This document shows positions 8,719 through 29,823 of a DNA stretch of 40,383 nucleotides, piece by piece. Below the pieces are notes generated by a model. That model was not told where the DNA came from. It searched no databases and was given only the letters and a program-made list of their open reading frames with translations. Source of the DNA: Candidatus Methanomethylophilaceae archaeon (GTDB lineage: Archaea; Thermoplasmatota; Thermoplasmata; Methanomassiliicoccales; Methanomethylophilaceae). Numbering within the stretch: position 1 is the first letter of the stretch; the number at the start of each line of letters is the position of its first letter. Both the position numbers and the translations under genes were made by a program. The DNA lies in NCBI GenBank assembly GCA_017519045.1, contig JAFWTC010000010.1, positions 1 through 40,383 of the forward strand, in the 5' to 3' direction.

Positions 8719-9879
8719 TCACGAGGATGTGACAGCGGGGGACAGACCAGAATGGACCAGTGGCCCTACCTCCATTACGTGAAGTGTAGCAGAGCAGGAA
8801 CCGTTCATGATATGGACCTGAAATATTCCAGACAAGTTTTTCAGGGCGCTGGCTTCGATGATTATCGTTCCGGAAATGCCATCCACTCTGGTGTCGTCGT
8901 TACCGTATTCCGCATATACTTCGTTGACGTCTTCGGCTTGCACATGAATGACGAGGTCGTCTCCGTTGGCTATGGCGCAGTGTCCTCTTTGGGTGCAATT
9001 CCATGTGTTCGATCCAACGCTATACTTGAAGAAGTCTTCAGGAAACATAAACTGGCAGGTGAAATTGGTCTTTTCAATCGTATTTACGTCCGTCTCTCCT
9101 ATTGCATAGATTGTGAAGTTCTTTGTTGAATCCCCGTCCATTAGCGATTCCGCGAGCTTTCCTGAAATCGAGCCGTCCAATTTCATTCCGATTCCGTCAG
9201 GGAGCCCCACGGCGTAAAAGTCGTAAGCATCGCGAATGTAGGTGCCGCCTGTGTTGACATATGCGTAAAGCGCCGTCATGTCCTCGTCGAAACCTATCTG
9301 TATACCTTGTTCGCCGAGGGGGACATATTGTGAAGGGTTCTCTGAGAGGTATATCCCGTCGTTGAATGATTCAACGGCGCGTATGTATGCGCAGAAATGA
9401 TATTGCTGGGATACGTGGGCCTGGTCAACCCCGTCCACAATCTCCCAGTCCTCGACGGTAACCCTTATTACGTATCTCCATTCGCCATCGGATTGCCCCA
9501 GATGGAACGATAGGCAATACGCGCCTATGGTTTCGTCATTGTTTCCACGAGAGTATGCTGCCGTGTTTCCATCTTCGCACGCTATTATGTGAGGCCCTTG
9601 GGTGTCTTTTATGAAGCCATAGGACACGAAGCTTCCATTTTCGACATAACCGACCTCAATGCATACCGTGGAATGGTCTCTGAAGGCATTTTTGTTTATG
9701 CCGACGGTTATTGGTATGTAGGAGTTGAATACCGCGATGTAGGGCGTATCGGATGTGCCGAGAATCATTTCTGGGTTTCCAACGCCGCCGTCTCCGTTGC
9801 CGGAGGACGAAGCTGGCATGCACATGGGTGCTAGCAGTATAACTACTGTCAGAACGAGTATGGCGCTTGTCACCCTCAT
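8719..9879 (-). CDS. Exported surface protein with V-H-S-G-L C-terminal tail (paralogue A)
   Basis: No known family covers the whole protein. The ATG at 9879 is preferred over an in-frame ATG at 9972 because GGTGA lies 4 nt before it and it begins directly with a signal peptide (M-R-V-T-S-A-I-L-V-L-T-V-V-I-L-L). The mature part has beta-rich Ig-like segments. One resembles the putative-Ig He_PIG type: D-F-Y-A-V-G-L-P-D-G-I-G-M-K-L-D-G-S-I-S-G-K-L. The last 16 residues, VGPLVHSGLSPAVTSS, are shared with three other genes of this cluster. It probably acts outside the cell. It lies just downstream of the giant surface-protein gene and may be co-transcribed with it. Stop TGA. Confidence 0.7.
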   Translation of the reverse strand: MRVTSAILVLTVVILLAPMCMPASSSGNGDGGVGNPEMILGTSDTPYIAVFNSYIPITVGINKNAFRDHSTVCIEVGYVENGSFVSYGFIKDTQGPHIIACEDGNTAAYSRGNNDETIGAYCLSFHLGQSDGEWRYVIRVTVEDWEIVDGVDQAHVSQQYHFCAYIRAVESFNDGIYLSENPSQYVPLGEQGIQIGFDEDMTALYAYVNTGGTYIRDAYDFYAVGLPDGIGMKLDGSISGKLAESLMDGDSTKNFTIYAIGETDVNTIEKTNFTCQFMFPEDFFKYSVGSNTWNCTQRGHCAIANGDDLVIHVQAEDVNEVYAEYGNDDTRVDGISGTIIIEASALKNLSGIFQVHIMNGSCSATLHVMEVGPLVHSGLSPAVTSS

Positions 9880-9888
9880 GTTTTCACC

Positions 9889-9903
9889 GCCTTCGCTGAA
9901 GGC
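9889..9903 (-). promoter_or_regulatory. Small hairpin next to the ribosome-binding site of paralogue A
   Basis: A 6-bp inverted repeat, GCCTTC / GAAGGC with a 3-nt loop, directly precedes the GGTGA ribosome-binding site of the gene starting at 9879. It could tune translation initiation, but it may be fortuitous. Confidence 0.2.
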
Positions 9904-9987
9904 TCGATATGTACCGGCCACCAAGGGCATTCCGTTGGATTCTGAATGTGAACCATTCTCTTCCTCCTGCACCAGTTGGACATGCCG

Positions 9988-12900
9988 TCATCGGCAGTCG
10001 TACAGCTTGGGGATTACGTATACCTCCGTATTTATCACGAGTGTCTTAGCGCCTGGTCCGAACACCGTCACTTTCACAGGCACCAGGCCGAGCATGTCCG
10101 TCGCATTCAACGTCATCGACAATTTCCCGTCGGTCCATGACGATTCGAATTCCACGTCGGCTTTCTGGACATATGATATGTAGACAACTCCGTCTTTGAA
10201 GATTGCTAGGCCTTCCGGTGTGGTATCGGAGGAGAGGTCCAGTAGTTCCATGGTGTAATGGCCGTCATTCTGTGCGAAGGCAAAGCATGCGTGCTGACTC
10301 ACAACTTCTGTTGAGGATCTGAGGGCGAGGTAAGGGCTCACCGTGACCAGATCCTGTGTGACCGTTATAACTCCGTCGATGTCGTATCTGACGCCGTTGA
10401 CTACGATTGTGAATATCGATTCCGTGTCAGAATCGTAAGTGAACCCTGTGGTGGTGCCGGCTTTTACCCTATATTCCTCATAGTCCTGGTATTCGGTCTT
10501 GGATTTGTATTCTGCCGTGATTCCCATCGTGCCTATCTCGGGATTATAGATCCTGATTATTTGGTCATAGGCCGTGCTCATGGTGTTGAAGACGGAAGCA
10601 TTGCCTATGACGTCCATTTGGCATACAGGGGAGGTGTCGTTGTAGAAGGTTCCTTCTCCGATTCTATCCCATTTATAGAAGGAGTATTTCGACCCTTCTT
10701 TGAAATGGTATGTGAACTGGAGCTGGTCTCCATATCTGACTTTTACAGGAATGTTCGATTCTCCAGCTGAAACGCTTCCTCCCGTGTAGCTTTCTCCGTC
10801 TGCGCTCACGACCCATTCCCAGGATATCCTGCCCTCGTAAGGTGCTTGGACTTCGACCGTGTATTCTATGTTTTTCCATATTGCTGTAAAATGCACGGTG
10901 CTGGGGACTATGACGTATCTGGAATCGGAATAGTACAGGACGTAGCAGTCCACGGGGTCCTCGTCTTCCATGTACCTCCAATGGTCCACTTTGACAATCT
11001 TTCCCATCGGCAGGATTACGTTCTCGATCACCGTGGTGCCGTCGACGGTTTTGCTTTGGGCATACTCCCAGCCGAGCAGGTCATATCCTTGGCGAATAGC
11101 GTCGCTGAAGTGGAACATATAGCTCTCGCCAGTGGAGAACGTCAGCGTTTGCATAGTGTCGGACTTGACGAATACTGGCATGAACTCGATGGTGGTGTGG
11201 CCCTTGTAGCAGTGACTGTATATCTTCTCTCCGAGCTGATGGAATTCGTACATGTCTGTACCTTCGACGGAAGAGGAGTATCCTACTAGCACATAGTCAT
11301 CGAGGTCTTGTCCCTGTATGCTGAAATATGATTTGTCAATGTCGGGTGCCATGAACCATTGATCCACCGCGGTAGACGTCGATATGAAGTATCCTCTTGT
11401 GTTCTTGCTGATCTGTTGTTGGATCGGGTCGGCATCTCCCCTTCCGCTTTGAATTTGTATGGCCGATTGAGGGGTGTTCACGTTTATGCCGCTTATGTAC
11501 ATATTCACGTTGTTGCGAGAACAATTGACTGCTATGAACGTGTCTGACGCATCGATTACTTCTATAGGCGTTTTGCGTGGGTACCTCTCGTCGGCGCCGT
11601 AGTATTTCTCGCCACTGTTGAGGGACATCCATTGGTATCCAGACTCTAATTTAATGCCTGTGTTTGTGGGAGATGGGATGAACTTGTCTCCAATCTGGCA
11701 GGTTATGGTGTTTTCGTTCGTTATGGTGTTTCCATCGCTGACGATGAACCTCAGGGTCGCCTCCGCATTTTTGTATATGGGGGTCATGAGGACGTTGCCG
11801 CCTTCGTATACGTTGAAGCTGGTGCCTGCGTACGTCTTTCCGTTGTAGCTCCATCCGACGAACTCGGCATCCACCGGGGCATCCGGAGGGGCAGGCGGGA
11901 GAATTATCATCTCTCCAATCGTTCCGCTTTTAGTGATAGGGTCATCAACTTCAGGATAGGCCAGGTATTTTTCCGGAGGTATCACTCTGCCGCTTTCATC
12001 GGCCATCAGTCCTGAATCGCCGATCATCCATCCTGCGAACCTCAGGTTTCCGATCGGAGCGACAATTGGAAGATCAACGACATAGCCGATCTTTGCGTCG
12101 TGTGGGATTGTTCCGACCACGGTGCCCTTGCCTCCCGTGGTGAAGGACAGCGTGGCGGACTCTGATGATCCGAGGGTAACGAACTTCGCGATAAGGGTCT
12201 TGGTTTCCGAGGACGTGAACGTGTAGTCCTTTAGCAACTGGTCGTCGAGATACCAGCCTATGAACTTGTTGTTCCCTTTTCCGATGACCTTGGGAAGAAT
12301 CATGACGTCTCCCACTTTACCTTGCACAGGCGTTCCGTTGGGATAATCAGGCATGCTGCCTAGGTTTTCGTCCATTGAGAAAATCACATATGACACGATA
12401 TCTGATTTTTTGACGGCTACGAAGTTTATGAACTCCTCTTCCGTTCCCGATGTGAACGTGTACTTGTCTTTGTAGAGTATGCCGTCGCTAATCCATCCTA
12501 CGTACTTCCCGGACGGAAGCATTATCGTACCGCCGACGGTTGATGTTACGGAACCGACGACCTCGTTGCCGTCCCAGAACTTGGCTTTTGCGACCATGCT
12601 TTCGTCTATATATACCGCGACGAATTCAATTGGGTCGGAGCTGATTGGTACATACTGCTGTCCAGGGGACAGTTCCACCGTTATTGCAGTGTTGGAGGCA
12701 TCAGCCAGCAGATACAGAATGAGCACATTCGCCTCCTCACTCACCACGTTGTTGAAGTTGGGGACTTCGAAAGTGTCGCCTTCGTATACATATCTCCCGA
12801 TTCCGTCAAGTGCTGAGTTTTGTAAGACGGCGACTTCCCAACGAACGTTGGCGTCGTGGAAATTCAATTTGCAGTATTCGGAAGCATCGGTGAGGAAGCT

Positions 12901-15900
12901 TCCGAATTTCTCGCCATACCTCATGTCGGTGTCGAATTGATCCAGGACGTCGTTGCCGTGGACCAGTCTTACTTTGACCAGGATGCCTTTCCATTTCAGA
13001 TGATAGACAGAATCGTCCGTCAGATGTTCCTCTTCCAAGACATTATCGAACTTCTTTTGCTCATAGGAATCGTACCAAACGCCGTCGCTGGTATAGCCTG
13101 GATTGGCGGATTCAAGAATGGCATCGCTCAAGACGAGCTTGTGCAACGGGCTGTAGTCGTTCAAAAGGCAGTAGCGGTCGCCGACATCATAGACGCGGCC
13201 GTCTATCAGCCAGCCCTTGAAGCCAGCCGATTCCGAGGGTTGGGGCAGTAATATGGTTTGACCGCTCTTATAGGTCTGTGTCGGAGAGCCGTCACGCTCG
13301 TGGGTCTCTATCATCGCACTACGCCCGGTGTCGATGACGACAGGCTTGTTTGAATCCTTGATGGCTGCAGAAGGGGATGGCGTGATGCCGTCAGGCAGAC
13401 GAATCGACTCATCGGCCTCGTAAAGCCTCCCTTCCCAGAGCCATCCGGTGAAATCGACTCCGGTGGAGGGTTCGAAAGTATAAGTGTAGCTGTTGTTTTC
13501 GTACAGCGGGACGAATTCTACAGTCTCGTCGGTGTGGATGACGTATTCGTCGCCGGGTTCGTAGTTCTTCCCTTCAGAATACCATGATACGAATCCGGTC
13601 TGGATCGATGGCTGGGGGAATTTCATGATTTTTCCATACTTGGGGCCCTTATGGTCCTCGTCGACTTCTTCGACTTCTTCCATCTCGGAGCCGTCGGTGA
13701 AAACCAGGGTGACGTCAATCATTTTCTTCTTGTCGTAATAAACGGGAATCGCGAAGACGTTGTTCGCATAAGTGACGGTCATCGTGCAGACTTTCCGCCC
13801 TTCGACGTTTTCGATGCCATAGAAGATGTTGTTTATCATCCAGCCTCTGAAGTTTTCGTCTTCAGGCACAGGTAGGCTTATATCCGCACCCTGGCTGGTG
13901 ACTATCATTTCGCCGTAGGTTATGGATGCCAGCTTCTGTTCGTTGAGCATCACGGCGATGAAGTTCATGCCGTCGGGCAACACGTGGACCGTAGGCATGT
14001 ATCCTTCGGATTTTTCGAACAGATGGCCACGGAAAGCCCACCCAACGAAGGATTCGCTGTCGTTGCCAGGATATTCCGAAAGCTGGATTGTATCTCCGAC
14101 CCTTTTTTCGACAATGGATATAATCGTCCCGTTCTGGTCTGCGAACTTGACCTCTACGGTTTCGCTGCTCTCGTCAGGTCCCGGAATGGCAATGAACGAC
14201 ATGGATTCCTGATAAAGGACGACAGTTTCTCCGACACCGTACTCCATTCCGTTGAAGGCCCAGCATACCGCGCCAGTGGGGAGGGCGGGAACATGAACCA
14301 GGCTACCTATGTGCCCGTGTACTACATAATTGCCGAATGCGGCCTTCGCCGCAACGCTCGCGTTCTCGTAGACCGCTTCGGCGTGGGCCGAGTTCCTTGT
14401 GGTCACATCTACAGGGACGACCTGGTCGCCGCTAGGGATCTTGAACGTCGCTTTGAAAGCGTATTTGGCATAGAGTTCCAAGTTCTCTGTCACCGAGGTG
14501 GTGGTGTCGAAGTACCTGGTGCAGCCAGGATCCCTGTACCATCCAGAGAAGTACTCGTACGTCATGGGGTATTGGGATCTGGCTATCTGGTCCCCGTGGG
14601 AAACCGTTATCGTCTTAGCGAGGGTGTAGGGAGGCACAGGTATCGTGACCTCACCTCCTGCCTGTAGGCTGTCCAGCATAGGGTAGTCATAACTCTGGGC
14701 GTAGAATCTGACGGTATACGACGGCATCTTTTCGAGATGAATCGTGAGAGAGAACTTGTTGGTCGTTCCATCGTTGATGACGAAGTGCAGTTTGGGCGCC
14801 TTGCTGAGGTCCGAGACTCCGCTTACGTCGAATCTGAGCGTGGCGCTGAATGCCCCGGTGAGTGCGAAGTCCTTGTGGATGCAACTGTTCAGGGTTCCTC
14901 CCTTTCCGACGGTCCCTACCCAGCCTTGTGATCCGTAATCGTTCAGGTCCGTGTGCATTTCTACGAGGATGCCGCTGTAGTTTTCTACGGAGTCCAGGTT
15001 CAGTATGCCGTTTTGGTATCCGTACGGTATTACGAAGGTCCCGTAGCCCTCATAGGTCAAAGGCATCGATATGGATTCTTTAAGCAAGATGGTCATATCA
15101 TGCCCGATTTCGGTAGCCCCGGCGAAAGAACTCTTGGATTCGGAACAGTATATTCCCACACTGACCATGTTAGTGCACACGGGGACTTGCACCAGGATTC
15201 CGCCAATGTTCATTGTCATATATTCCTGGAATTCCAGGACGATTTCGCCTATGCGGCCCGTGTAGCTCTGATTGCCGTAATATTGCAGGCGTATGTTGAT
15301 TTTGTATGCGTCCTGTCCCCCGGTGCCGTCGCATGCCTCGATGGTTCCGCCGACGATGATGCCGTCGACTTCGTCAAATGTTAGTACGCCATCTCCTGAA
15401 CCGAATCCGAAGGATAGGAGAAAATCGTCTGGCCCTTGTACCGAATTTACAGAATTGACGAATGTGGTGCTGGTCTCATTCATGACGATGCTCGCTCCGG
15501 TATAGCGTATGGCGCTACCGTCCCTTACACGGATAAGCTCGAACGTGATTGGCGATCCGTCGACGTCGGTGCTTAGGACGTCGTCGCTTGAATCGCCGGT
15601 CGCCACCAGAGACACTGTATGTTTCATAGACCCTATCATGGTCCACAGCTTGAATGCGTCGTGACCAGGCCCTTCGACTTTGTCAACGAACGGTATGAGC
15701 TCGAGGAGACCCTCTTTGTATTGCATGAACCGCCCTTCGGAGCCGAGATACCCGTATGCGAAAGCGCCGTAGAAATCGTCTGAGATGTTGTGCTCCAGGA
15801 TTGTGTATCCGCGGATGTTCCCGTACTTCTCCAGATTGCCTCCATGGTCGTCCACGCTGTCATAGGCGGTGTTGAACATCACGCCGGCGCTCAATTTGAT

Positions 15901-18900
15901 GGAGTTCATCGGATTGGACATCGATGTTTTTGCCATCGTGCTGTCGACGTAACTGCCGTAGCCCTTGACGTTATGCATGTCGGAATAGAGGTCGAGCGAG
16001 GACCTTCCAATGAGCCTCAGGTCTTCTATATCGTACAGCGACATCATGTCGGAGGGAGATGGGTCCGAACTGCTGGCTCTTCCTGAAAGGGCTATTGACG
16101 AGCGCACAACGTCGACGACGGAGGCACCTTGAATGGACTCCATGGTATGGGCGGGCTTGTAGTCCTTTATCGTCACGGTCCTCGTCCCAGGGATGAAGAC
16201 GTCAGACTCTTCAGTTCCAACGAGACAGGAATTTCCGGCTCCCATCACGCTTTTGCCCACGTATGCTCCCTTAGAGCCGTCAAACACGATGCTGGAATTA
16301 CCGTAAACTAGCACCTGTGTGGAGGTGACAGATTCGTCCCTGACCCCTATGTCTCCGCCGCCGTAAATCGAGTAGCCTATCCACGACTTCCCTTCTATGG
16401 AGATGTGGGTGTCGCCTGTCATGTATTTCATAAGCCCCCCACCGTATACGGATCCAGCGATTTGTACCCCTTTGTTGTTTTCAGCTGTAGTGCCTTCTAC
16501 GTCGACGTAAGTGTTCCCTTCAACTGGGCCTCTTGCTCCTGCGCCGTAAACGCATGATCCTATTGTCGCATTGTCTAAGATGTCTACGTGTATCGCTCTG
16601 GCTGTGACCTTGGCATAGTCTTCATAATGATCTACTTCGTCGTCATACAGGAATTCATAAGTGAGTGTGGTGTTTTTGTTGGTGAACCATTGAGCGTATA
16701 TCTTATCTCCTGACGGGGATATGAGTATGAGGTTTGTGAAGTCTTGCTCGTCTCCTCCGACCAATGTTTTGTTAGAGGATAATTTGACTCCTCTTCCGGA
16801 ACCGAACACGTCTCCGTCGATTACGGCATTTTCGCATACCGTCACAAAAATCTCGTTGCAATCAGTAGTCGCCACGGGGCCGCGGTCCACCATTCCCGTT
16901 ACATCATTTGAGGTGATGTACCAGTTGTCCACGGGTACACCGTTGTATGACGAAATAGCAGGGACGCTTTTGCCTCCGCCGTAGACATTGCCCTCTACGT
17001 GGGCATTTCCAGATACTGTCACATTTATATCGCCACTAAGGTAGCAGCGACTTCTTCCAGTGCTGTCTGGGAAGCTTTTGTATGGATCTAGACGTTGTCC
17101 TTTGTAGTCGCTGTGTTTTTGTTTTTCGAATCCCCCGGATCCTCCGCCGTAAACGCTTCCGAGTACTGTTCCGCCGGATATATCTACGGTGATGCTGTCT
17201 ATGGGCAGGGTGTTCAAATCATCCATAAGGCCGATCGTCGACCTCATTCCTCCGCCGTAAACGTCGCAGACAGTACCGCCTCTGATCTCTACTTGAATTT
17301 TTCCTCCGTCTATCATCGAGGCGTATTTCGATTCGACGTAGGTGTCGTACCCTCCACCGCAGACGGTCGCAGCGTTCCCAGAATCTTTTACGATAAGGTG
17401 AGTTCCGCCAACACTTTTGTAGTGCTGTTTATTATTGGCATCGGTATTGATTCCGCACATCATGTGGGTGATCGTGGAACAGCCCGACAGTTCTACATTA
17501 GCGGTACCTTTCACCTCGGCGCTGTAGACCCTTCCGCCTCCTTGGACATCCCATGCCAATGATTCTCCGGAAACATATAGGTTGGAGTCGCGGCACACGA
17601 TAGCTTGGGTTCCATGTCCTGTGCTTCCTCCGCCAATCGTTACGACTCCCTCAGTGATATTTAATCTATCATAGTTGGTGCCTTGCGGCTTTACATTGAC
17701 CTTGTAAGGCCATTCTGGCAGGATCGGAGCTGTTTTTGAGATTTTGAACGGAGTGGGGTCTGTGAAGGACTCTCCGGTAAGGAAAGTCATTGCATAACTA
17801 TTCGGTACCATGTAGGAATTGACAATGTAGGAATGCGTAGAACCGCTGATACTTGATGCATTCCCGGCTGAGCCACCTGCAAATGTATCGAGGACTGTGG
17901 CGTTTTTCAGTACGGTGTAAGTGGAGCAATAGTCTTTTGGCTGAGTTTGCGATATGTACTTCGTTGTAGTGTTTGGTCCGCTTTTGTATTTTAGTTCTGG
18001 ACCTTTGTTCTCAACTTCCCCGATGTTTCTACTGAAATTGCCGCCGCTGACATTGTACCAGGTTCCGCTATGGATGAGCAGGAGGGTACTAATTTTTTCT
18101 TCATCTTCTCTGTAAGGAAAAACGTTCACATTTTCGTGGTCGTTGTTGATAATGTCGCTGGTTATGGCTCCACCTCTCAGTACGGCATACCCAGACGCTG
18201 CACCGCCGTTGTTAAACGACAGGATGCCTGTGCCTATGATTAAGGGGTACCCGCAGCCGGCTATGCCGTTTTGAGCATGTCCGTGTTTTCCGTCACTCTT
18301 GAAGTTGAAACCTATGTCGTCAATTATTGTGGCTCCGCCCATTTTGAATTCATATTTAATTTGGAGGGTTCCATTGTCATCGCATCCTTCGATGCATCCC
18401 ACTTTGCCAGGTCCAGGCTCTGAACGTATCGTCATAGGTTTAGAGGTCGTGACGCCGGACACATGAATTGAATCGCCGTGCTTTACAAGGAGGATATTGG
18501 TGTATGGGTCATTGCTAAAATAGTTTTGAACGTCTCTCAGAACTTTGCTATGGGTGTCTGTTTCTATTTGTATGCCGTCTAATGGGGATGTCGATGTATG
18601 GACCGTGGCTTGCAACAGATTAGGCTCTGGATTACTGACAATTGCCCAGTTATTTACAGTGCTCCATGTGGCGTAGATGTGCATTACGTCGTTCTCGGAG
18701 ACAGCCTTCTTAGTTGTCCCGTCCATGCGGTATGACGTATACTTGCCTGCGCTGTTTTTTTCGATAAATAGCATGTTGTCTTTCAAGTCGTTCTCGGACA
18801 GTACTTCGCCAGGGTAATGTACGGGGACGTCGCCTGCATCTTTATATTTCCATCCGGTGAATACTACCGTGTTGCCGACTTTGTAATCCTTGATCTCGAG

Positions 18901-19269
18901 CCAGTTCCAGTTAATTCCTTTTGATGATGCTGTATCTTCCGAGGTGGGCGTGGTTATTGTGCCTTTCCATAATTGTGGGTTATACTCTGTGGAGACTATG
19001 CTGCCGTAGTAGATGACATCGACGTATTCTTTGTTTGAATTTACATCGTTGTAATCGCTGCTTTTGGGAAGAGTGTAATTTAGATGGTACCTTACTACGT
19101 GGTACTCCCCGACATACCCATTGTTGGGTTTTAGAACGGCACCTGAGGTCTGGTTCGATATTGGGAAACAGGACACTAGCAATATGGCCACTGCGAATAC
19201 GGCTATTAACGCCATCGTAGACTTTCTTCTAGCGCTGGGGGAAGTCTTTTTAGATAAGGGCACGGCCAT
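9988..19269 (-). CDS. Giant exported adhesin-like protein (about 3,093 residues)
   Basis: One uninterrupted frame. The ATG at 19269 is chosen because GAGGTGA lies about 5 nt before it; an in-frame ATG at 19293 adds eight residues. A basic N-terminus is followed by a hydrophobic segment (about 19-36), so it is exported. Residues about 70-200 hold one InlB-like repeat. Residues about 540-1030 form a Gly-rich beta-helix-like region with nine V-Y-G-G-G-type turns. Residues about 1520-2490 carry about ten InlB B (Listeria-Bacteroides) repeats of the form F-x-G-W-x-x-x-G-x-x-Y; further repeat-like domains lead to the C-terminus. There is no C-terminal membrane anchor, sortase motif or V-H-S-G-L tail. 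InlB repeats are common in adhesins of gut microbes, so attachment to host, food particle or partner cells is likely. The 5' third is clearly lower in GC than neighbouring genes. Confidence 0.85.
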   Translation of the reverse strand: MAVPLSKKTSPSARRKSTMALIAVFAVAILLVSCFPISNQTSGAVLKPNNGYVGEYHVVRYHLNYTLPKSSDYNDVNSNKEYVDVIYYGSIVSTEYNPQLWKGTITTPTSEDTASSKGINWNWLEIKDYKVGNTVVFTGWKYKDAGDVPVHYPGEVLSENDLKDNMLFIEKNSAGKYTSYRMDGTTKKAVSENDVMHIYATWSTVNNWAIVSNPEPNLLQATVHTSTSPLDGIQIETDTHSKVLRDVQNYFSNDPYTNILLVKHGDSIHVSGVTTSKPMTIRSEPGPGKVGCIEGCDDNGTLQIKYEFKMGGATIIDDIGFNFKSDGKHGHAQNGIAGCGYPLIIGTGILSFNNGGAASGYAVLRGGAITSDIINNDHENVNVFPYREDEEKISTLLLIHSGTWYNVSGGNFSRNIGEVENKGPELKYKSGPNTTTKYISQTQPKDYCSTYTVLKNATVLDTFAGGSAGNASSISGSTHSYIVNSYMVPNSYAMTFLTGESFTDPTPFKISKTAPILPEWPYKVNVKPQGTNYDRLNITEGVVTIGGGSTGHGTQAIVCRDSNLYVSGESLAWDVQGGGRVYSAEVKGTANVELSGCSTITHMMCGINTDANNKQHYKSVGGTHLIVKDSGNAATVCGGGYDTYVESKYASMIDGGKIQVEIRGGTVCDVYGGGMRSTIGLMDDLNTLPIDSITVDISGGTVLGSVYGGGSGGFEKQKHSDYKGQRLDPYKSFPDSTGRSRCYLSGDINVTVSGNAHVEGNVYGGGKSVPAISSYNGVPVDNWYITSNDVTGMVDRGPVATTDCNEIFVTVCENAVIDGDVFGSGRGVKLSSNKTLVGGDEQDFTNLILISPSGDKIYAQWFTNKNTTLTYEFLYDDEVDHYEDYAKVTARAIHVDILDNATIGSCVYGAGARGPVEGNTYVDVEGTTAENNKGVQIAGSVYGGGLMKYMTGDTHISIEGKSWIGYSIYGGGDIGVRDESVTSTQVLVYGNSSIVFDGSKGAYVGKSVMGAGNSCLVGTEESDVFIPGTRTVTIKDYKPAHTMESIQGASVVDVVRSSIALSGRASSSDPSPSDMMSLYDIEDLRLIGRSSLDLYSDMHNVKGYGSYVDSTMAKTSMSNPMNSIKLSAGVMFNTAYDSVDDHGGNLEKYGNIRGYTILEHNISDDFYGAFAYGYLGSEGRFMQYKEGLLELIPFVDKVEGPGHDAFKLWTMIGSMKHTVSLVATGDSSDDVLSTDVDGSPITFELIRVRDGSAIRYTGASIVMNETSTTFVNSVNSVQGPDDFLLSFGFGSGDGVLTFDEVDGIIVGGTIEACDGTGGQDAYKINIRLQYYGNQSYTGRIGEIVLEFQEYMTMNIGGILVQVPVCTNMVSVGIYCSESKSSFAGATEIGHDMTILLKESISMPLTYEGYGTFVIPYGYQNGILNLDSVENYSGILVEMHTDLNDYGSQGWVGTVGKGGTLNSCIHKDFALTGAFSATLRFDVSGVSDLSKAPKLHFVINDGTTNKFSLTIHLEKMPSYTVRFYAQSYDYPMLDSLQAGGEVTIPVPPYTLAKTITVSHGDQIARSQYPMTYEYFSGWYRDPGCTRYFDTTTSVTENLELYAKYAFKATFKIPSGDQVVPVDVTTRNSAHAEAVYENASVAAKAAFGNYVVHGHIGSLVHVPALPTGAVCWAFNGMEYGVGETVVLYQESMSFIAIPGPDESSETVEVKFADQNGTIISIVEKRVGDTIQLSEYPGNDSESFVGWAFRGHLFEKSEGYMPTVHVLPDGMNFIAVMLNEQKLASITYGEMIVTSQGADISLPVPEDENFRGWMINNIFYGIENVEGRKVCTMTVTYANNVFAIPVYYDKKKMIDVTLVFTDGSEMEEVEEVDEDHKGPKYGKIMKFPQPSIQTGFVSWYSEGKNYEPGDEYVIHTDETVEFVPLYENNSYTYTFEPSTGVDFTGWLWEGRLYEADESIRLPDGITPSPSAAIKDSNKPVVIDTGRSAMIETHERDGSPTQTYKSGQTILLPQPSESAGFKGWLIDGRVYDVGDRYCLLNDYSPLHKLVLSDAILESANPGYTSDGVWYDSYEQKKFDNVLEEEHLTDDSVYHLKWKGILVKVRLVHGNDVLDQFDTDMRYGEKFGSFLTDASEYCKLNFHDANVRWEVAVLQNSALDGIGRYVYEGDTFEVPNFNNVVSEEANVLILYLLADASNTAITVELSPGQQYVPISSDPIEFVAVYIDESMVAKAKFWDGNEVVGSVTSTVGGTIMLPSGKYVGWISDGILYKDKYTFTSGTEEEFINFVAVKKSDIVSYVIFSMDENLGSMPDYPNGTPVQGKVGDVMILPKVIGKGNNKFIGWYLDDQLLKDYTFTSSETKTLIAKFVTLGSSESATLSFTTGGKGTVVGTIPHDAKIGYVVDLPIVAPIGNLRFAGWMIGDSGLMADESGRVIPPEKYLAYPEVDDPITKSGTIGEMIILPPAPPDAPVDAEFVGWSYNGKTYAGTSFNVYEGGNVLMTPIYKNAEATLRFIVSDGNTITNENTITCQIGDKFIPSPTNTGIKLESGYQWMSLNSGEKYYGADERYPRKTPIEVIDASDTFIAVNCSRNNVNMYISGINVNTPQSAIQIQSGRGDADPIQQQISKNTRGYFISTSTAVDQWFMAPDIDKSYFSIQGQDLDDYVLVGYSSSVEGTDMYEFHQLGEKIYSHCYKGHTTIEFMPVFVKSDTMQTLTFSTGESYMFHFSDAIRQGYDLLGWEYAQSKTVDGTTVIENVILPMGKIVKVDHWRYMEDEDPVDCYVLYYSDSRYVIVPSTVHFTAIWKNIEYTVEVQAPYEGRISWEWVVSADGESYTGGSVSAGESNIPVKVRYGDQLQFTYHFKEGSKYSFYKWDRIGEGTFYNDTSPVCQMDVIGNASVFNTMSTAYDQIIRIYNPEIGTMGITAEYKSKTEYQDYEEYRVKAGTTTGFTYDSDTESIFTIVVNGVRYDIDGVITVTQDLVTVSPYLALRSSTEVVSQHACFAFAQNDGHYTMELLDLSSDTTPEGLAIFKDGVVYISYVQKADVEFESSWTDGKLSMTLNATDMLGLVPVKVTVFGPGAKTLVINTEVYVIPKLYDCR
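11780..14700 (-). repeat. InlB B (Listeria-Bacteroides) repeat array in the giant protein
   Basis: At the protein level about ten degenerate units share a core F-x-G-W-x-x-x-G-x-x-Y followed by a short beta-rich stretch ending in F-x-A-V or similar. Examples are G-F-K-G-W-L-I-D-G-R-V-Y, K-Y-V-G-W-I-S-D-G-I-L-Y and E-F-V-G-W-S-Y-N-G-K-T-Y. Units are 60-110 residues apart and are diverged at DNA level, so this is an old array rather than a recent tandem expansion. Confidence 0.75.
16235..17367 (-). repeat. Nine V-Y-G-G-G turn repeats in the giant protein
   Basis: Nine copies of a turn [VI]-[YCFM]-G-[GAS]-G recur about every 25-85 residues, usually preceded by [VI]-x-G and followed by a strand with alternating hydrophobics and a T-x-[VI]-x-[IV] pattern. 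This is the look of a right-handed beta-helix (pectin-lyase-like) fold. At DNA level the antisense CCGCCGTA recurs. I know no named repeat that corresponds exactly. Confidence 0.6.
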
Positions 19270-19797
19270 GCAATCACCTCGTGATATCATCATCAGCCTG
19301 TTGAAGATTTCTTTGTTGTGTTAAAAAATTTTTGGAGCATTACAGGAGTTCTGATGGCATGACATGCAGTCTATGACCTTTGCAGGAATTGTGGGTTTTT
19401 ATTGCTGTTGACGAGGTTACGGATGTTTTTGATTCTTATCGTTAACCTCAAGAAAATATTTCGCTTGGCGGGATTATTGAGGGGATATTATGATAATATG
19501 CAGGTTGTGGGATTGCATGGACATGTTTCAATCATGTTTGTTGGAGCAGCTAAGTAAGATGCAAGGCTCTTTTTATCGTTCAAGACTAGTACATGCTGAT
19601 CCATGTCTTTCAAAGTGGATTTCTGTTGTTGGTAGATTTTTTTTTGTTTTTGAACAATCACCTTTTTTATTTATAATTCCACATTTGTTAATTCTTCAAG
19701 GGCGTGTTTGAAATTATTGAAGTAAACAGTATAGCAACAGTCTGGTGTATACGGTTGTTTCGATCAAATTGAATGATTTTTGGTTTTCGAGGATCAT
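19270..19797. other. AT-rich intergenic region upstream of the giant gene
   Basis: More than 500 nt without a convincing gene, far richer in A/T than the rest of the window, with long T runs (around 19637-19660). It should hold the promoter of the giant gene: minus-strand AAAAATTTTTTAA at 19321-19333, about 55 nt before its ATG, with GAGGTGA at the ribosome-binding site. A plus-strand frame at 19490-19711 has no family resemblance. No tRNA or small RNA was recognised. Confidence 0.5.
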
Positions 19798-20502
19798 TCA
19801 GCTTTGGGCGTCCACCAGCGGGCCGGCTATGAATATGAACGCCTTGTACCATCCGATCAGTCCCTCGTTATTGTCATGGAGGGTCACGGTCGCAGGGAGG
19901 GTTCCACGATATCCGACCTCGTCGGTGATCTCCATGTTCAATACGTTGCCGCTCATGGTCGCATCTATAGCGATTCCTGACACGTGGGCGGCCACTTCGA
20001 CCGTTGCCGCGGATCTTGGAATGGTGATGGATGCGATGTATCTTCCGCTCCGGTCGTCTGGGGTCGCGATGTACAACGCGTCGGCGGATGAACTGCCTCC
20101 GGTGTCAATTGTGTGGCCTTCCACTTCTTCCACGGGAAGCACGGTCATGTCCTTGGTGACCTCTATCGGGACAAGTCCAGCGACGGCTGCTTCCATCGTG
20201 CCGTCGACGATCGCGCCTATGAGGCTTCCGTGGCTATGGCTGCCTCTGTAGGCGACATATACGTTCGCTCCGCCCTCGACGGTGTATGTCCCGCTATTTA
20301 TCGCCAGGATTGCGTTAGAGTCGTCTTCTTCGTCGATTATCAATTGGAACCTGTCGCTCTTGAGCAGGGTGACCTCGTACGTGACGTTCGCATCTCCGTC
20401 TGAGTCCTGCGATGCGGGAGGCGATACGATGAGCGACGTCAGGATCACAGCGATAAGCGCCATGACGCAAACGATGTGGTTCGAGACTGTTTTAGAAGCC
20501 AT
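19798..20502 (-). CDS. Exported protein with shortened G-P-L-V tail (paralogue E)
   Basis: A 234-residue protein with a signal peptide (basic start, then V-M-A-L-I-A-V-I-L-T-S-L-I-V) and a beta-rich mature domain. It has no recognised family. The C-terminus A-G-P-L-V-D-A-Q-S looks like a cut-down version of the V-G-P-L-V-H-S-G-L tail of its neighbours, placed after a similar hydrophobic strand. Its ATG at 20502 overlaps the end of the upstream gene (stop at 20492) by 11 nt, with AGGA right before the start, so translation is probably coupled to that gene. Stop TGA. It lacks the He_PIG-like segment of the other paralogues. Confidence 0.65.
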   Translation of the reverse strand: MASKTVSNHIVCVMALIAVILTSLIVSPPASQDSDGDANVTYEVTLLKSDRFQLIIDEEDDSNAILAINSGTYTVEGGANVYVAYRGSHSHGSLIGAIVDGTMEAAVAGLVPIEVTKDMTVLPVEEVEGHTIDTGGSSSADALYIATPDDRSGRYIASITIPRSAATVEVAAHVSGIAIDATMSGNVLNMEITDEVGYRGTLPATVTLHDNNEGLIGWYKAFIFIAGPLVDAQS

Positions 20503-21922
20503 TCCTGTCGCCTCGGTATGTCGTTATCGCAGGATTCAGGCCGGAATGAACGATCGGGCCGACAAGCATCACGTGGATGGTCGCGGACCTATCGCCGTCC
20601 GATATCCTGATTCTGATTATCCCGCTGTAGTCGTCGTAAGGCTCTATGGTCATGGTGCCGGTATCCGGGATCGCCTCCGTGACCATGCCGGAAGCGTCAG
20701 GGTACTCTACAGTGTATCCGGAGCCTTGGACGCCGATGGTGATCTCTTCCGTGTTCTCTATGCTTATGTAGCTGTCTTCGCTGGATTGGCCGGAGACGCC
20801 GTTTACGGTGTATCCGAATGCGTCCGCGGCTATCGTCAGGGCGTAGTTCTAGGACACGCGGTTCGTGGTGTAGTCCTTGGCCACCGCGTAGATCGTCATG
20901 GTCACCGTCGAAGCCTCGGCGTACCCTGCCAGCTTCCCCTCTATGGTCCCGTCCGATTTCATGTTCAGGCCGTCCGGGAGGCCCGACGCGTAATAGACGT
21001 AGTCTCCCCATTTGGGGTCGATTTCCCATCTGGGGCCGACGTTAGGGTCCTGGCTGTCTATTTTGACTACGACGCGGGCCATGAACGGACCGATGTTCTC
21101 GTGATGCTGTATGTTTATCGTTGTCGGGGTGGTCACGATGGTTTGTCCGTTGTTGTAGAACAGGCAGATGCCTTGGGCCTGGTTGATGATGATGTCCTCG
21201 GGGGTCAAGCCGCTGCTGCCATGGCCCTGATAGCGGTTGTTGGCTCCGAAATAGTAAGGATCGTGGTCGTAGTGGTTGTCGGCGTCCCCCTCCTTGACGA
21301 CGACCTTTATTCCGATCAGGAAATATCCGTTGCCGGTTTTGAGCGGCGGCTTTCCGCTGAATGCGACCACATAGAATCCGTTGAGGGGGTCCACTTCCTT
21401 GATGGACAAGCTTCCTTCGGACGATATCGCTGTGAGCCCGGCATGTTCCGGCCAGGAGTCGACCAGTTCTCTGGTGTTCCCGTTCCAAGCATATTTGGCT
21501 GTAAGGACTTGTCTCCAATTCTCAAATCCCGCCCAGTTTCCGCTTCCGCCGCCTCCGCTAGGATTGCTGTAGTTGTATGCCCTGATCGTTATCTCCACTG
21601 TGGGGTTGAGGAAATATTCCGTGTTCAGATCGAAATAGGTGGGGATTTGATCGGAATTGTTGTAGAAGTTGACGGAATCGTTGACGGTGCTGCCGCTGCC
21701 CAGCAACATTATCGGATCGGTCAATGTGCCGGTGCCGCTCTCGGACCATGTCTCAGGAATTAGTTGGATGCACGGGACCGCCAACAGGGTTGCGACGATC
21801 AGCGCGATCCGCACCGCTTCAGACCTCCGTCTGGACAGGCTGGGGGCAGGGGTCCGGCGCCCTCCCTCCGACGCGCCGTCGTCTTGTGGACGGCTTCCGG
21901 AATCGGCAATCCCACGGTGCAT
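20492..21922 (-). CDS. Exported surface protein with in-frame TAG (paralogue B)
   Basis: A 476-codon frame, open from 21922 to a TAA at 20492 except for one TAG at 20849-20851 (codon 358). Before the TAG lie a signal peptide (V-R-I-A-L-I-V-A-T-L-L-A-V), a beta-rich domain and the He_PIG-like segment Y-Y-A-S-G-L-P-D-G-L-N-M-K-S-D-G-T-I. After it come the domain and tail found in the paralogues, VGPIVHSGLNPAI plus a short extension. Three paralogues have Lys where the TAG stands. Reading TAG as pyrrolysine gives one full-length protein; the alternative is an AAG-to-TAG nonsense mutation. The start could be ATG 21922 (TATA about 30 nt upstream) or GTG 21814 (GGAGGT 9 nt upstream). Confidence 0.7.
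20849..20851 (-). other. In-frame amber codon, candidate pyrrolysine
   Basis: This TAG falls inside an otherwise open gene. The context V-S-[TAG]-N-Y-A-L aligns with V-S-K-T-I-L, L-S-K-N-I-T and I-E-K-T-N-F in the neighbouring paralogues, so the amber codon replaces a conserved lysine. The 118 codons after it, down to the TAA, are open and family-like. Confidence 0.6.
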
Positions 21923-21948
21923 GTTTCAACGTACTAATTACGCGTTAT

Positions 21949-21960
21949 CTGTATATTAAT
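21949..21960 (-). promoter_or_regulatory. TATA element for paralogue B
   Basis: Minus-strand TTAATATACAG lies about 30 nt before the ATG at 21922, the spacing expected of an archaeal promoter with little or no leader. If translation instead starts at GTG 21814 the leader would be about 110 nt. Confidence 0.45.
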
Positions 21961-22002
21961 GCACCAATGAATCCAACTTCTGTTGAAAAGTAAAGTAAGG
22001 TT

Positions 22003-22022
22003 GCCGGAGGATGCCCTCCGGC
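22003..22022 (-). terminator. Hairpin after the membrane-protein gene
   Basis: A perfect 8-bp stem, GCCGGAGG / CCTCCGGC with a 4-nt loop, lies just downstream of the stop at 22036. On the minus strand it is followed by a T-rich stretch (CCTTACTTTACTTTT), and the plus strand also shows TTTTT after it. It separates this gene from the next one downstream. Confidence 0.55.
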
Positions 22023-22035
22023 TTTTTCAATAGGT

Positions 22036-23625
22036 TTATTCGGATACGGCGTATCTGAACTCGCCGGAGCAGACCGTCTTGTTGGAGTCTCTGGCTATCG
22101 CGCGGACGACGAAGGAGCACGGGTCCTCGGGGGACGGCTGGGACGATATCTTTCCGGTTATAACGCCGTCGTCACTCATGGACAGGCCTGCGGGGAGCCT
22201 CTCCGCCTCGAACCTGTATCCGTCCCTCCTGTAGGAGTCCTTGCCGATGACGGCGAACACGTAGACGGGGTCCATGTCCCTGCTCTTGGAGAGGTCCAGG
22301 AACTGGTACGCCTTTCCGGAGAAGTCCCTGGATGCCACCGGATGGAACGAGCCGACGGACGAGGACAGCATGACGGCCTTCTTCTTCCTGAGCAGGAATG
22401 CCATCGCTATCAGCAGGGCTGCTATGACCGCCCCCGCAAGGGCGACGATCCACCAGGGGAAGTCGCTGCCAGGCTTCTCCACGTTTTTCCCGTCGGCGAA
22501 GATGTAGACGTCGCCGGTGAGGTTCGGGATCCTTATGTCGTTCCCGGAGACCACGTTCCCGGTGACGTTGGCGCCTCCCATCCACACGGTGGACTCTATG
22601 GCGTTGAACTGGGAGCCGGACGGCAGCGACAGCGTGACGTTCAGGGAGCCGCTTGCCGGGCTGCTGTACGGCGTTATCCTGATGCCGTCGTGGAGGGTGT
22701 CGTGGATGTAGTACATCCTCTGCATCCCGGTTAGGATGATGGTGGAGTCCTGTTCGACGTTTAACAAGGTGAACTTGTAGCCGTCGCCGTCAGGCGTGCG
22801 GTCCAGAGTGCGGCCGTCGGTCACGCAGAGGGATCTGGATCCGGACAGGTCGTAGGAGTAGCCCTTGAACGCGGTCGCGGTGTATGTGAAGTTGGTCCCT
22901 TTCGGGATGACCAGGCCGTCATAGGTGAACTTCAGGCCGTCAACGGGCTGGAGATCGATCTTGACCATGTCGTACACGGGCTGGGACGGGTCATAATCCC
23001 ACTTGGCATAGATGTGGGTTATGCGGCTGGCATCGAAGAGGTGGTAGTAGCTTCTGTCGTAAGGGGTCTCGCAGGCGGTGTCAACGAACCATCCGGTGAA
23101 TTTGTATCCCGGTCTCACTGGATCTTTTGCCGGAGGGTCGACCAACAATTGGGTGCCGTACTTGTATCCCTTTTCGGAGGTCACGGGGGCGTTGTAATAC
23201 GTGGTGTCCGTGCCGTCGTTGTACATGAACTTGACGTAGCGCACGTAGGACGACGGGTTCACCAGGACGGTGAGGTCTTCGGAGAGAGGGGTGCCGCTCA
23301 CTACGGCGTTCTCCCTCACGTAGTAGGTGATGTAGGTGTCGTCCGCACATATCTCGAAGGGCACGTTGAATTCCAACGCCACGTTCTTCACAGGGTCGAC
23401 GATGTCGAGGTTGGCCTTCACGGTGGAGTATCTCCATTCGATGGAGGAGTACGTCTTATCGTCGTAGTTGTGGTCCCTTATGCTTATGTTCCTCCCGTAA
23501 CAGATCCATATGTTGGAATCTATGGGTTCCTCGTCGGCATCGGAGTCGAACGAGGCGATCTGGGTCGGAACCAGCAGGGCCGCGATGGCCAAAAAGGCTG
23601 TCAGGACAATCGCGTTCCTATTCAT
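22036..23625 (-). CDS. Membrane protein with InlB repeat and a C-terminal Ig-like domain (paralogue F)
   Basis: A 529-residue protein. It has an N-terminal signal peptide, an InlB B repeat (Y-K-F-T-G-W-F-V-D ending H-I-Y-A-K-W, about residues 168-210), and a further beta-rich part. A transmembrane helix follows (W-W-I-V-A-L-A-G-A-V-I-A-A-L-L, about 388-410), then R-K-K-K, then about 115 residues containing a He_PIG-like segment, R-L-P-A-G-L-S-M-S-D-D-G-V-I-T-G-K-I. With a cleaved signal peptide and the positive-inside rule, this last domain would face the cytoplasm, which is unusual for an Ig-like fold. It lacks the V-H-S-G-L tail and could be the membrane partner of the secreted paralogues. 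The ATG at 23625 lacks a Shine-Dalgarno; a TATA-like element lies about 28 nt upstream. Stop TAA. Confidence 0.72.
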   Translation of the reverse strand: MNRNAIVLTAFLAIAALLVPTQIASFDSDADEEPIDSNIWICYGRNISIRDHNYDDKTYSSIEWRYSTVKANLDIVDPVKNVALEFNVPFEICADDTYITYYVRENAVVSGTPLSEDLTVLVNPSSYVRYVKFMYNDGTDTTYYNAPVTSEKGYKYGTQLLVDPPAKDPVRPGYKFTGWFVDTACETPYDRSYYHLFDASRITHIYAKWDYDPSQPVYDMVKIDLQPVDGLKFTYDGLVIPKGTNFTYTATAFKGYSYDLSGSRSLCVTDGRTLDRTPDGDGYKFTLLNVEQDSTIILTGMQRMYYIHDTLHDGIRITPYSSPASGSLNVTLSLPSGSQFNAIESTVWMGGANVTGNVVSGNDIRIPNLTGDVYIFADGKNVEKPGSDFPWWIVALAGAVIAALLIAMAFLLRKKKAVMLSSSVGSFHPVASRDFSGKAYQFLDLSKSRDMDPVYVFAVIGKDSYRRDGYRFEAERLPAGLSMSDDGVITGKISSQPSPEDPCSFVVRAIARDSNKTVCSGEFRYAVSE

Positions 23626-23667
23626 CGTATCGCTCTATGGAGAAAGAGAAGATAAATGGTTTGGGAT

Positions 23668-23687
23668 GAGAGGGTCGGAGCCCTCTC
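23668..23687 (-). terminator. Hairpin after paralogue C
   Basis: A 7-bp stem, GAGAGGG / CCCTCTC with a 6-nt loop, lies immediately downstream of the TGA at 23693 and before the promoter-like element of the next gene. It suggests that paralogue C is transcribed alone. Confidence 0.5.
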
Positions 23688-23692
23688 GTTTA

Positions 23693-24904
23693 TCAGGCGG
23701 ACTGTACAGCGGGATCAAGTCCAGAATGAACGAGAGGCCCGACGACCATGACGTGGATGGTCGCGTTGTACTTGCCGTCGGTTATGTTGATCTGGACGAT
23801 GCCGGTGTCGTTTGCGAAGGTGTTAGCTGCAATTGTGAAAGCACCATCGGTGAGCCCGGTGACGGTCGTGGGGATGGCAGCAGCGTAGTACGTCATCTTG
23901 TACTTGCTGTAGTTGGCCGAGGGAATAGCCTGGCTATTTGCTTTGAACACTTTGATAGTCAGACCGTCAGTGTTCTTTATTGCCGTGTAGCCGACTATGC
24001 TGTAGCTCACAGGGTTATCATCGTTGCCGACAATCTGGTACGTGAATGCGTCGCTGGTGTCGATATCGACTGTGTATACAAATTCACACTTCAGGATGGT
24101 CTTGGAAACGGAAGCCTTATTTACAGCGTACACGGTGAATTTGGTGGGATCGGTTCCGGATTCACTAACCGGTACATCAGAACTGAGCTTTCCTGCGATT
24201 TCTCCAGTGCTCTTCATGTATATTCCGGATGGGAGGCCCGTGGCATAGAAGTCGTACTTATCGGATTCGTACTCAGTGGATCCGATTTTAACTTTTGCGA
24301 ATGCGTTTCCATAATCTTGGCCCTTGTAGAAGGTGAAGGAATCGCCAGATCCGGTGTGAGTGGTGGTTCCTTCCTTCACTATGACGGTGGGTGCGTCGGC
24401 GGACCCGACCTTGACGTTTATGCCGTAGATGTACTCAAGATCTACGTAGTCAGTAATAGCCGGGTTGCTACCTACAAAGGTGACAGTATCTCTAACAGTT
24501 AGGGTGATCAGCCTCATGGTGGCAGCATCACTTGCCGTCTCAGCTGCGCCTTCCACGGTTAGTGTGTAGATTGACGGATCGCTCGTTGCGGCTGCGGTCA
24601 CTTTAATGTCGGTCAGGTTAACTGTCGTTCCAACCCCGTTTGTTATGAGGCTTGAATTGCCAATCTTGGCGTTGACGTAATCCGTGGTACCGACCTTGAT
24701 GGCGTCGTATGCTTTGTAGTTGAAGTCAATCTTCGTTGTTATCGTGTTCCCAATGCCTATAGCGAGTGCTGTGTTTTCGCCGGCAGGATCGTGAATCAAT
24801 ACCGTGGCCGGCGTAGGATTTTCGGCTTGGACCGGGACGATTACTGCGAGGGCCGCCATGACCATGATCGTGGACATGAGCGCGGCCAACACTTTCTCTT
24901 TCAT
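23693..24904 (-). CDS. Exported surface protein with V-H-S-G-L tail (paralogue C)
   Basis: A 403-residue protein with a clean signal peptide (M-K-E-K then A-L-M-S-T-I-M-V-M-A-A-L-A-V-I-V, cleavage probably after V-Q-A). The mature part is Thr/Ala/Val-rich beta domains, including the He_PIG-like Y-D-F-Y-A-T-G-L-P-S-G-I-Y-M-K-S-T-G-E-I. The conserved Lys aligned with the TAG of paralogue B sits in S-V-S-K-T-I-L. The protein ends VGPLVHSGLDPAVQSA. The start has GAGAGTGA about 5 nt upstream and a TATA-like TATTAATAAC at 24971-24980. It has its own terminator. No catalytic motifs are visible; a structural or adhesive role outside the cell is likely. Stop TGA. Confidence 0.75.
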   Translation of the reverse strand: MKEKVLAALMSTIMVMAALAVIVPVQAENPTPATVLIHDPAGENTALAIGIGNTITTKIDFNYKAYDAIKVGTTDYVNAKIGNSSLITNGVGTTVNLTDIKVTAAATSDPSIYTLTVEGAAETASDAATMRLITLTVRDTVTFVGSNPAITDYVDLEYIYGINVKVGSADAPTVIVKEGTTTHTGSGDSFTFYKGQDYGNAFAKVKIGSTEYESDKYDFYATGLPSGIYMKSTGEIAGKLSSDVPVSESGTDPTKFTVYAVNKASVSKTILKCEFVYTVDIDTSDAFTYQIVGNDDNPVSYSIVGYTAIKNTDGLTIKVFKANSQAIPSANYSKYKMTYYAAAIPTTVTGLTDGAFTIAANTFANDTGIVQINITDGKYNATIHVMVVGPLVHSGLDPAVQSA

Positions 24905-25081
24905 GATATCACTCTCTTTGCGATATTCCGCCCGATGGCGGAAGCTAGCGGAAGTACCTACATCGTACTGGTTATTAATACTGATGGATGAAACGTTCGA
25001 ACGAGTTCAAATGCCGAGGTCGAATCTGGGCCCGTGGCTGGACATCGGAACTGGATGAGAGCCTGTGGTCAGAAGATAACA

Positions 25082-25098
25082 CGGGGCCTGGGGCCCCG
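25082..25098 (-). terminator. GC-rich hairpin after paralogue D
   Basis: A 7-bp stem, CGGGGCC / GGCCCCG with a 3-nt loop, lies 13 nt past the TGA at 25111. On the minus strand it is followed by TGTTATCTTCTG. It probably ends the transcript of paralogue D. Confidence 0.5.
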
Positions 25099-25110
25099 CA
25101 ATAACCGGTT

Positions 25111-26301
25111 TCAGGAAGAGGTGACGACGGGGTCGAGTCCGGAGTGCACTATGCTGCCGACGATCAGGGTGGTGACCTTGTGCTGCACGGTGACGTCTCC
25201 GACGGTGTTCTTCATGATGATCTCGACGACTCCGGAGTCATCAGGCCCTGACGTGTAGGTGTACTTCCCGCCCACGAGGCTGATGGGGACTTGGGTTCCG
25301 TCGGGTCCGGTGTAGAACACCTTGACGTTGGGGTTGAGGGAGCCGTCGCTCTTCTCCGGCTTGACGGAAATGCTGGTCCCGGCCTTGATGATCTTGGTCA
25401 CGTCGTCCTCCTCGGTCTCGGAGCCGTCTTCGGTCTCTACCACGTAGGAGAACTCGACGTCATTGAGGTAGACCCTGAGGGTGATGTTCTTGGACAGGAT
25501 GTTCCCGTTGGCGTCGGCGGCGTTGATGGTGACGGCGTAGCTCTTGTAGTTCTTGCCCTCGTCCGCCTTGATGTCGTGGATGACCTTTCCGGTGATGACG
25601 AACTCGTGGTCGGCGGCCACGTCGACCTTCACGGCGAGTCCCGCGGGGAGGCCGGAGGCGTAGAAGTTGTAGGTGTTCAGTATGGCGGCCTTGGTGCTGT
25701 CCTGGGGGTTGTACGCCCAGAGCTTGAACACGGGGACCTCTCCCTTGACGACCTTGAGATACTCGGCGCTGCCCTCCTTGGATACGGGGTCGACGGCGAT
25801 CTGGTCCTTTCCGGTGTCCTCGTGTCCAGAGGCAATCGAGCGCACGTTCGCGCCGTAGTAATAGTCGAGGGTGGTGGTCTTGGTCTTGTATTCCGCGGTG
25901 ATCTCGACCTTGATGGTGAGTTTCGTGGTCTTTTCCTGCGTGGCGTATTTGAGCGTGAACTCGTAGACGCCGGAGTCGCTGGTCGAGCTGATGGTGACCA
26001 GCGCGCCGCCGGAGTTGACGGACGTCTGGCTGCCGATGGCGATGTTCTGGTAGGCGCCTCCGGTGCTGTAGCTGAACTTCACGCTTCCGCTGAGCGTGTA
26101 CGCGGCTTGGTTGAAGTCCATCCTGGCTTTGAGGCCGTCGCTGTCGCTCTGGTACAGGGCCGCGGACGCCTTCTCGCTTCCGATGAGGTAGTAGGGGTGG
26201 TCCGCGTCCCCCTCCTCGGCTCCGGCGGTGGGCGCCGAGATTATGAGCGCGGCGACGGACATGATGATGGCCATCAGGATCGCCACGAGCTTGCTGTTCA
26301 T
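25111..26301 (-). CDS. Exported surface protein with V-H-S-G-L tail (paralogue D)
   Basis: A 396-residue protein with a strong ribosome-binding site (AAGGAGG 6 nt upstream) and a signal peptide, M-N-S-K-L-V-A-I-L-M-A-I-I-M-S-V-A-A-L, with cleavage probably after T-A-G-A. The mature protein has Ig-like beta segments. The He_PIG-like part is N-F-Y-A-S-G-L-P-A-G-L-A-V-K with an insert before I-T-G-K-V. The Lys aligned with the TAG of paralogue B is in I-L-S-K-N-I-T-L. An acidic stretch (E-D-G-S-E-T-E-E-D-D) precedes the last domain, which ends VGSIVHSGLDPVVTSS. A TATA-like CATTTTAAAC at 26375-26384 implies a leader of about 48 nt. GC is high, like the housekeeping genes. Stop TGA. Confidence 0.75.
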   Translation of the reverse strand: MNSKLVAILMAIIMSVAALIISAPTAGAEEGDADHPYYLIGSEKASAALYQSDSDGLKARMDFNQAAYTLSGSVKFSYSTGGAYQNIAIGSQTSVNSGGALVTISSTSDSGVYEFTLKYATQEKTTKLTIKVEITAEYKTKTTTLDYYYGANVRSIASGHEDTGKDQIAVDPVSKEGSAEYLKVVKGEVPVFKLWAYNPQDSTKAAILNTYNFYASGLPAGLAVKVDVAADHEFVITGKVIHDIKADEGKNYKSYAVTINAADANGNILSKNITLRVYLNDVEFSYVVETEDGSETEEDDVTKIIKAGTSISVKPEKSDGSLNPNVKVFYTGPDGTQVPISLVGGKYTYTSGPDDSGVVEIIMKNTVGDVTVQHKVTTLIVGSIVHSGLDPVVTSS

Positions 26302-27906: not shown

Positions 27907-27924
27907 GAGGGGGGCTTCCCCCTC
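27907..27924 (+). terminator. Terminator of the malic enzyme gene
   Basis: A 7-bp stem, GAGGGGG / CCCCCTC with a 4-nt loop, starts 4 nt after the TGA and is followed by CTTTCTTTTTCTT. It overlaps the stop codon of the convergent LicD gene and may act in both directions. Confidence 0.65.
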
Positions 27925-28675: not shown

Positions 28676-28709
28676 CTGACGCCTCCGTCCAAGGACGCTT
28701 TGCCAACCC

Positions 28710-28745
28710 TTTATATGGGTTATGGCATTAGTAAAAAGCGGTCGC
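28710..28745 (+). promoter_or_regulatory. TATA element for the aminotransferase gene
   Basis: TTTATATG at 28710-28717 lies about 33 nt before the ATG at 28746 in the short gap between divergent genes, implying a leader of only a few bases. No Shine-Dalgarno precedes the ATG, which also favours 28746 over the in-frame ATG at 28722. Confidence 0.5.
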
Positions 28746-29822: not shown

Positions 29823-29823
29823 C

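Follow-up and report, generated by a model that had tools for sequence, protein, structure and literature searches.

Why should four secreted proteins with very different bodies, encoded in one cluster of a methanogenic archaeon of rumen type, share one short C-terminal tail? The question arises in a 40,383-nucleotide stretch of DNA from Candidatus Methanomethylophilaceae archaeon (contig JAFWTC010000010.1; hereafter, the window), in which the four proteins (A-D) lie among genes for a giant adhesin and a putative membrane anchor (Table 1). To our knowledge, how the giant adhesins of these archaea are held on the cell is unsettled.

Table 1. Tail-bearing proteins and associated features of the window, in order of position.
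Feature	Position	Strand	Remarks
A	8719..9879	-	secreted Ig linker, 386 aa; orthologue in G005 (L018)
Tail of A	8719..8769	-	VGPLVHSGLSPAVTSS, TGA stop; translation, pattern search
Giant adhesin	9988..19293	-	secreted, InlB/List_Bact repeats, 3101 aa, no C-terminal TM seen; PF09479 E 2.7e-6
E	19798..20502	-	secreted, 234 aa, ends GPLVDAQS; kinship to tail family unsupported
B	20492..about 21814	-	Ig linker, one in-frame TAG, start uncertain
Tail of B	20492..20563	-	VGPIVHSGLNPAITTY, then run-on RGDRNGF, TAA stop; translation
In-frame TAG in B	20849..20851	-	conserved C-domain and tail follow it
Anchor	22036..23625	-	signal peptide, InlB repeat, TM and RKKK, He_PIG-like domain; PF09479 E 2e-6
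C	23693..24904	-	secreted Ig linker, 403 aa; structure predicted
Tail of C	23693..23743	-	VGPLVHSGLDPAVQSA, TGA stop; translation, pattern search
D	25111..26301	-	secreted Ig linker, 396 aa
Tail of D	25111..25161	-	VGSIVHSGLDPVVTSS, TGA stop; translation, pattern search

A conserved tail at a fixed distance from the stop

Translation recovers a common C-terminal VG[PS][LI]VHSGLxP[AV][VI] in A, B, C and D, on the strand and at the coordinates where an initial annotation of this DNA had located it. The last 12 residues can be written as VHSGLxPx[VIL]xxx-COOH, with five residues between the P of VHSGLxP and the C-terminus in A, C and D. The annotation had placed all four motifs exactly at the C-terminus; this is true of these three, whereas B continues for 7 further residues. 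The codon after TTY in B is CGA, a single step from TGA, which suggests that this gene has lost its TGA stop; the 7 additional residues overlap the start of E (20492-20512, minus strand). E itself had been read as a cut-down member of the same family, a kinship that profile comparison does not support (with the profile of the C-domain, hhalign gives a probability of 0.85%).

Searched for as a coding pattern, VHSGLxP has exactly 4 matches in the 1.9 Mb genome, each of them one of the tails of A-D, and the reversed control has 0. No copy thus lies at a mid-protein position in this genome, an occurrence that the annotation had set against its own proposal. Six more copies are found in the metagenome-assembled genomes (MAGs) of two sister species, G005 and G001, the sixth, in G005, being VNSGLAPCITSS. 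In every one of them the V precedes the stop by exactly 12 residues, as it does in 9 of the 10 copies from the three species, B being the exception. The remaining VHSGLxP matches within the genus are unrelated or short frames. A stricter terminal pattern gave four matches over 84,980 species genomes, only in the two sister-species MAGs (Tb.RUG.20, and RGIG8197 from water buffalo rumen). In this search for proteins with such an ending, which the annotation had called for, the VHSGL form is confined to three species. Viral contigs contain no match to the tail pattern and no relative of C, and a viral origin was rejected.

The V, S, G, L and P of the tail are invariant, though the bodies are only 18-26% identical: among A-D, identity is 0.18-0.26 over the bodies as against 0.43-0.78 across the last 30 alignment columns. 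The claim that conservation is strong at the end alone needs amendment. The tail does far surpass the bodies, but the He_PIG-like core of the middle domain, YxFYAxGLPxGIxMK, equals it (mean pairwise identity 0.70 and 0.70), making the tail one of two conserved islands. Since A-D are paralogues within one cluster, their similar ends might be artefactual, left by a recent duplication of the 3' ends or by gene conversion there. Yet the same codon is used in only 19 of the 67 same-residue codon pairs among A-D, A pairs in the tree with its G005 orthologue (support 99/98), and the tail is retained in two other species. Such an artefact is accordingly very improbable, and gene conversion as the source of the likeness was rejected as contradicted by the codon divergence. 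With codons and bodies diverged, and most terminal branches of the tree one to two changes per site long, the retention of the tail points to strong selection at the protein level.

Giant adhesin, linker and anchor as a gene set

Each tail-bearing protein runs from a signal peptide through about three Ig-like domains, of which the central one is He_PIG-like, to the tail; the export signals of A-D were judged by inspection of their hydrophobic N-termini. We refer to them as linkers. Among 14 family members, two match He_PIG (PF05345) in the core region, the better of them with E 1.1e-8; A-D themselves give no match, and the PF05345 model has no terminal tail. The C-domain also has a filamin-like sequence match (E 2e-4), which spans no more than about 54 positions of the profile, where the Ig pattern is a common one. 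Profile searches find the linker family in 10 of the 31 genomes of the genus, and there are weak matches in two genomes from another genus; a profile-based scan of the genome contig collection for the family returned no match.

In related genomes the giant adhesin gene is followed by that of the Ig linker and then by that of the TM-anchored InlB protein, a set that is enlarged in the window to D, C, anchor, B, E, giant and A, all on the minus strand. A profile of the N-terminus of the giant has strong matches in exactly the ten linker-bearing genomes. That of the anchor has a strong match adjoining the linker in 9 of them, and none in G001, which is 61% complete. Since these are linked genes in related genomes, this co-occurrence amounts to co-inheritance rather than to ten independent events. 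Both the giant and the anchor exceed the curated PF09479 (Flg_new/List_Bact_rpt) cut-off of 27 bits, at 27.8 and 28.3 respectively, with related anchors reaching 64.5; the TM segment of the anchor was identified by inspection. Neither PF09479 nor PF05345 covers the tail or the three-gene set. Long List_Bact-repeat proteins on cells reported to lack a wall and S-layer are also a feature of the adhesin-like proteins described for Methanomethylophilaceae, which PMC10673518 presents as membrane-bound; in the available portion of that source, the linkers and their tail are not described.

We also considered whether the giants themselves carry the tail. The C-termini of two of them, in G003 and G015, are similar by eye; the candidates were rejected by both HMM and hhalign. 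An HMM of the last strands recovered only G015 among the giants, with an E of 0.007 that one internal window of G014 equalled or bettered, and hhalign of the C-domains gave a probability of 11%.

Several variations on the set may be recorded. The He_PIG-like domain of the window's anchor (22036-22380, minus strand) follows the TM and basic run, placing it on the predicted cytoplasmic side. The orthologous anchor of G005 matches PF05345 there (L053 5419-5776, plus strand; E 4.8e-5), and the anchors of the other genus members examined end near the TM. In the second genus, G078 has a linker-anchor gene pair with no giant adhesin beside it (L087 9614-11688).

Position and possible role of the tail

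In the AF2 model of C (14-row alignment, mean pLDDT 68.7), most of the C-terminal Ig domain has pLDDT 82-93 and its last strand spans residues 380-388, while the tail, residues 392-403, falls below 50. In the model of the distant member L014 (17 rows, mean pLDDT 63.0), the last confident strand ends at 353, and a low-confidence strand follows at 363-367. The tail thus lies beyond the confidently predicted Ig domain in both models, although its low pLDDT may reflect the shallow alignments. The annotation had allowed that the motif might simply be the last strand of a known Ig fold; in both models the last strand predicted with confidence comes before it, though these are just two monomer models from shallow alignments. 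The folds otherwise resemble generic cadherin/Ig-type chains in both Foldseek and VIA. VIA ranks the Haloferax S-layer protein 7ptp first for the C model (Z 8.5 over 97 residues, rmsd 3.8), with the staphylococcal adhesin SraP, 4m00, also among the best (Z 8.2 over 161 residues, rmsd 5.3); both similarities are of a generic Ig-like kind near the usual background, with no common tail or family seen.

Family members outside the G000/G005/G001 group have different ends, mostly VxAxIxIxG, at the same site after the last Ig strand. Both kinds of tail alternate between hydrophobic or small residues and residues of other types (exact ranks 8/126 and 2/126), a pattern like that of a beta-strand with one buried face, even in the distant homologues.

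The annotation had offered two kinds of function, a sorting, processing or anchoring signal and a docking peptide for a common partner. As to the first, the tail has the exact C-terminal position on exported proteins, and the conservation apart from the neighbouring sequence, that are typical of sorting signals, and in being a short conserved C-terminal motif it recalls the PGF-CTERM/archaeosortase and LPXTG/sortase systems. On this account a protease or transpeptidase would recognise it, possibly cut it, and attach the proteins to the surface. However, as the annotation had itself remarked, the motif is followed by neither a hydrophobic helix nor a basic run, in contrast to the TM helix and basic end of those signals. 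None of the NCBIfam models fit the 14 family members (the only three matches, at E 0.058-0.088, are unrelated). The co-occurring enzyme that the annotation proposed to look for did not appear either: ArtA (TIGR04125), EpsH-type (PF09721) and sortase (PF04203) models had no match in the ten family-bearing genomes, several of which are incomplete, with controls for the two former matching. Moreover, the tail is limited to one Ig family rather than being present on unrelated exported proteins of the genome. A sorting role gains no support from these results and appears improbable.

The docking alternative fares better. We favor the view that the tail is a terminal docking strand joining the Ig linkers to a common acceptor, a reading that we would put close to an even chance. 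It draws on the fixed distance to the stop, the site beyond the last confident Ig strand, the strand-like alternation and the conserved, linked partner genes, as well as on a tail common to otherwise diverged paralogues with no sortase-type machinery found. The last 12 residues would leave the finished C-terminal Ig domain and add as a beta-strand to a shared acceptor, for which the candidates are the giant adhesin, the anchor and the next linker subunit, the last through one of its Ig domains. From the conservation, position and gene linkage we infer binding in trans, its strand form and the identity of these candidates. The same plug on all paralogues would then allow the same socket to be used while the outer domains diverge. 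Apart from the shallow alignments behind the models, three features count against such a strand: its invariant G and P are atypical of a plain beta-strand, the low-confidence strand of L014 makes pairing inside the chain possible, and the VHSGL form has so narrow a species range.

The second of these leads to a competing, intramolecular reading, in which the tail serves only folding, by adding an edge strand to its own C-terminal Ig domain or by pairing with a neighboring domain of the same chain. The tail does come directly after the last Ig strand in all homologues, its alternation suits a cis strand as well as one in trans, and the weakly predicted L014 strand is what a cis pairing might look like. 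Against this, AF2 does not confidently place the tail in either member although it predicts the remainder of the domain well, and the conservation of the tail far exceeds that of any other strand in this domain. We consider a purely intramolecular element rather unlikely.

Docking by a terminal strand has structural precedents in which a donor strand lies outside the subunit's own fold, at the N-terminus: the Saci_0406 threads of Sulfolobus (PMC9715654) and the TasA fibres (PMC9674648). Their subunits, like the linkers, are secreted and have a beta-sandwich or Ig-like fold, and each carries a conserved terminal strand beyond that finished fold, to which the linker tail may correspond. In contrast to the linkers, where the putative strand is C-terminal and known from sequences and predicted models, polymerisation has been demonstrated for both; no sequence relationship of the linkers to Saci_0406 or TasA was found. 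By extension of the docking strand, we tentatively suggest, as a scheme with well under an even chance of being correct, a lineage-specific plug-and-socket system in which interchangeable Ig linkers mount or extend giant adhesin fibrils by their C-terminal strand, independently of sortase, chaperone-usher or archaeosortase. The cultured M. alvi of the same family bears fibrils of up to 300 nm, with no wall or S-layer observed (PMC10673518). If true, the scheme would provide for fibril mounting on rumen methanogens whose relatives lack both. The giant-linker-anchor set with its exact terminal tail is a testable candidate for an adhesin mount in rumen methane producers, and the shortness of the tail makes it a simple bait for the acceptor.

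In-frame TAG codons and neighboring genes

Besides the TAG in B, a G005 paralogue (L011 769-2067, plus strand) has an in-frame TAG at a site that differs from that of B. The genome encodes PylS, with a tRNA-Pyl (anticodon CTA) beside it, and it is possible that pyrrolysine is incorporated into these two surface proteins; a young nonsense mutation in B or in the G005 paralogue is the alternative. We rejected the stronger proposition that TAG is exclusively a sense codon, as several plausible genes of the window end in it. Finally, genes for LicD, a class V aminotransferase and a polysaccharide flippase adjoin the surface cluster (27923-31380), with a GT2 gene farther on (38350-39360); these are perhaps concerned with surface glycan decoration.
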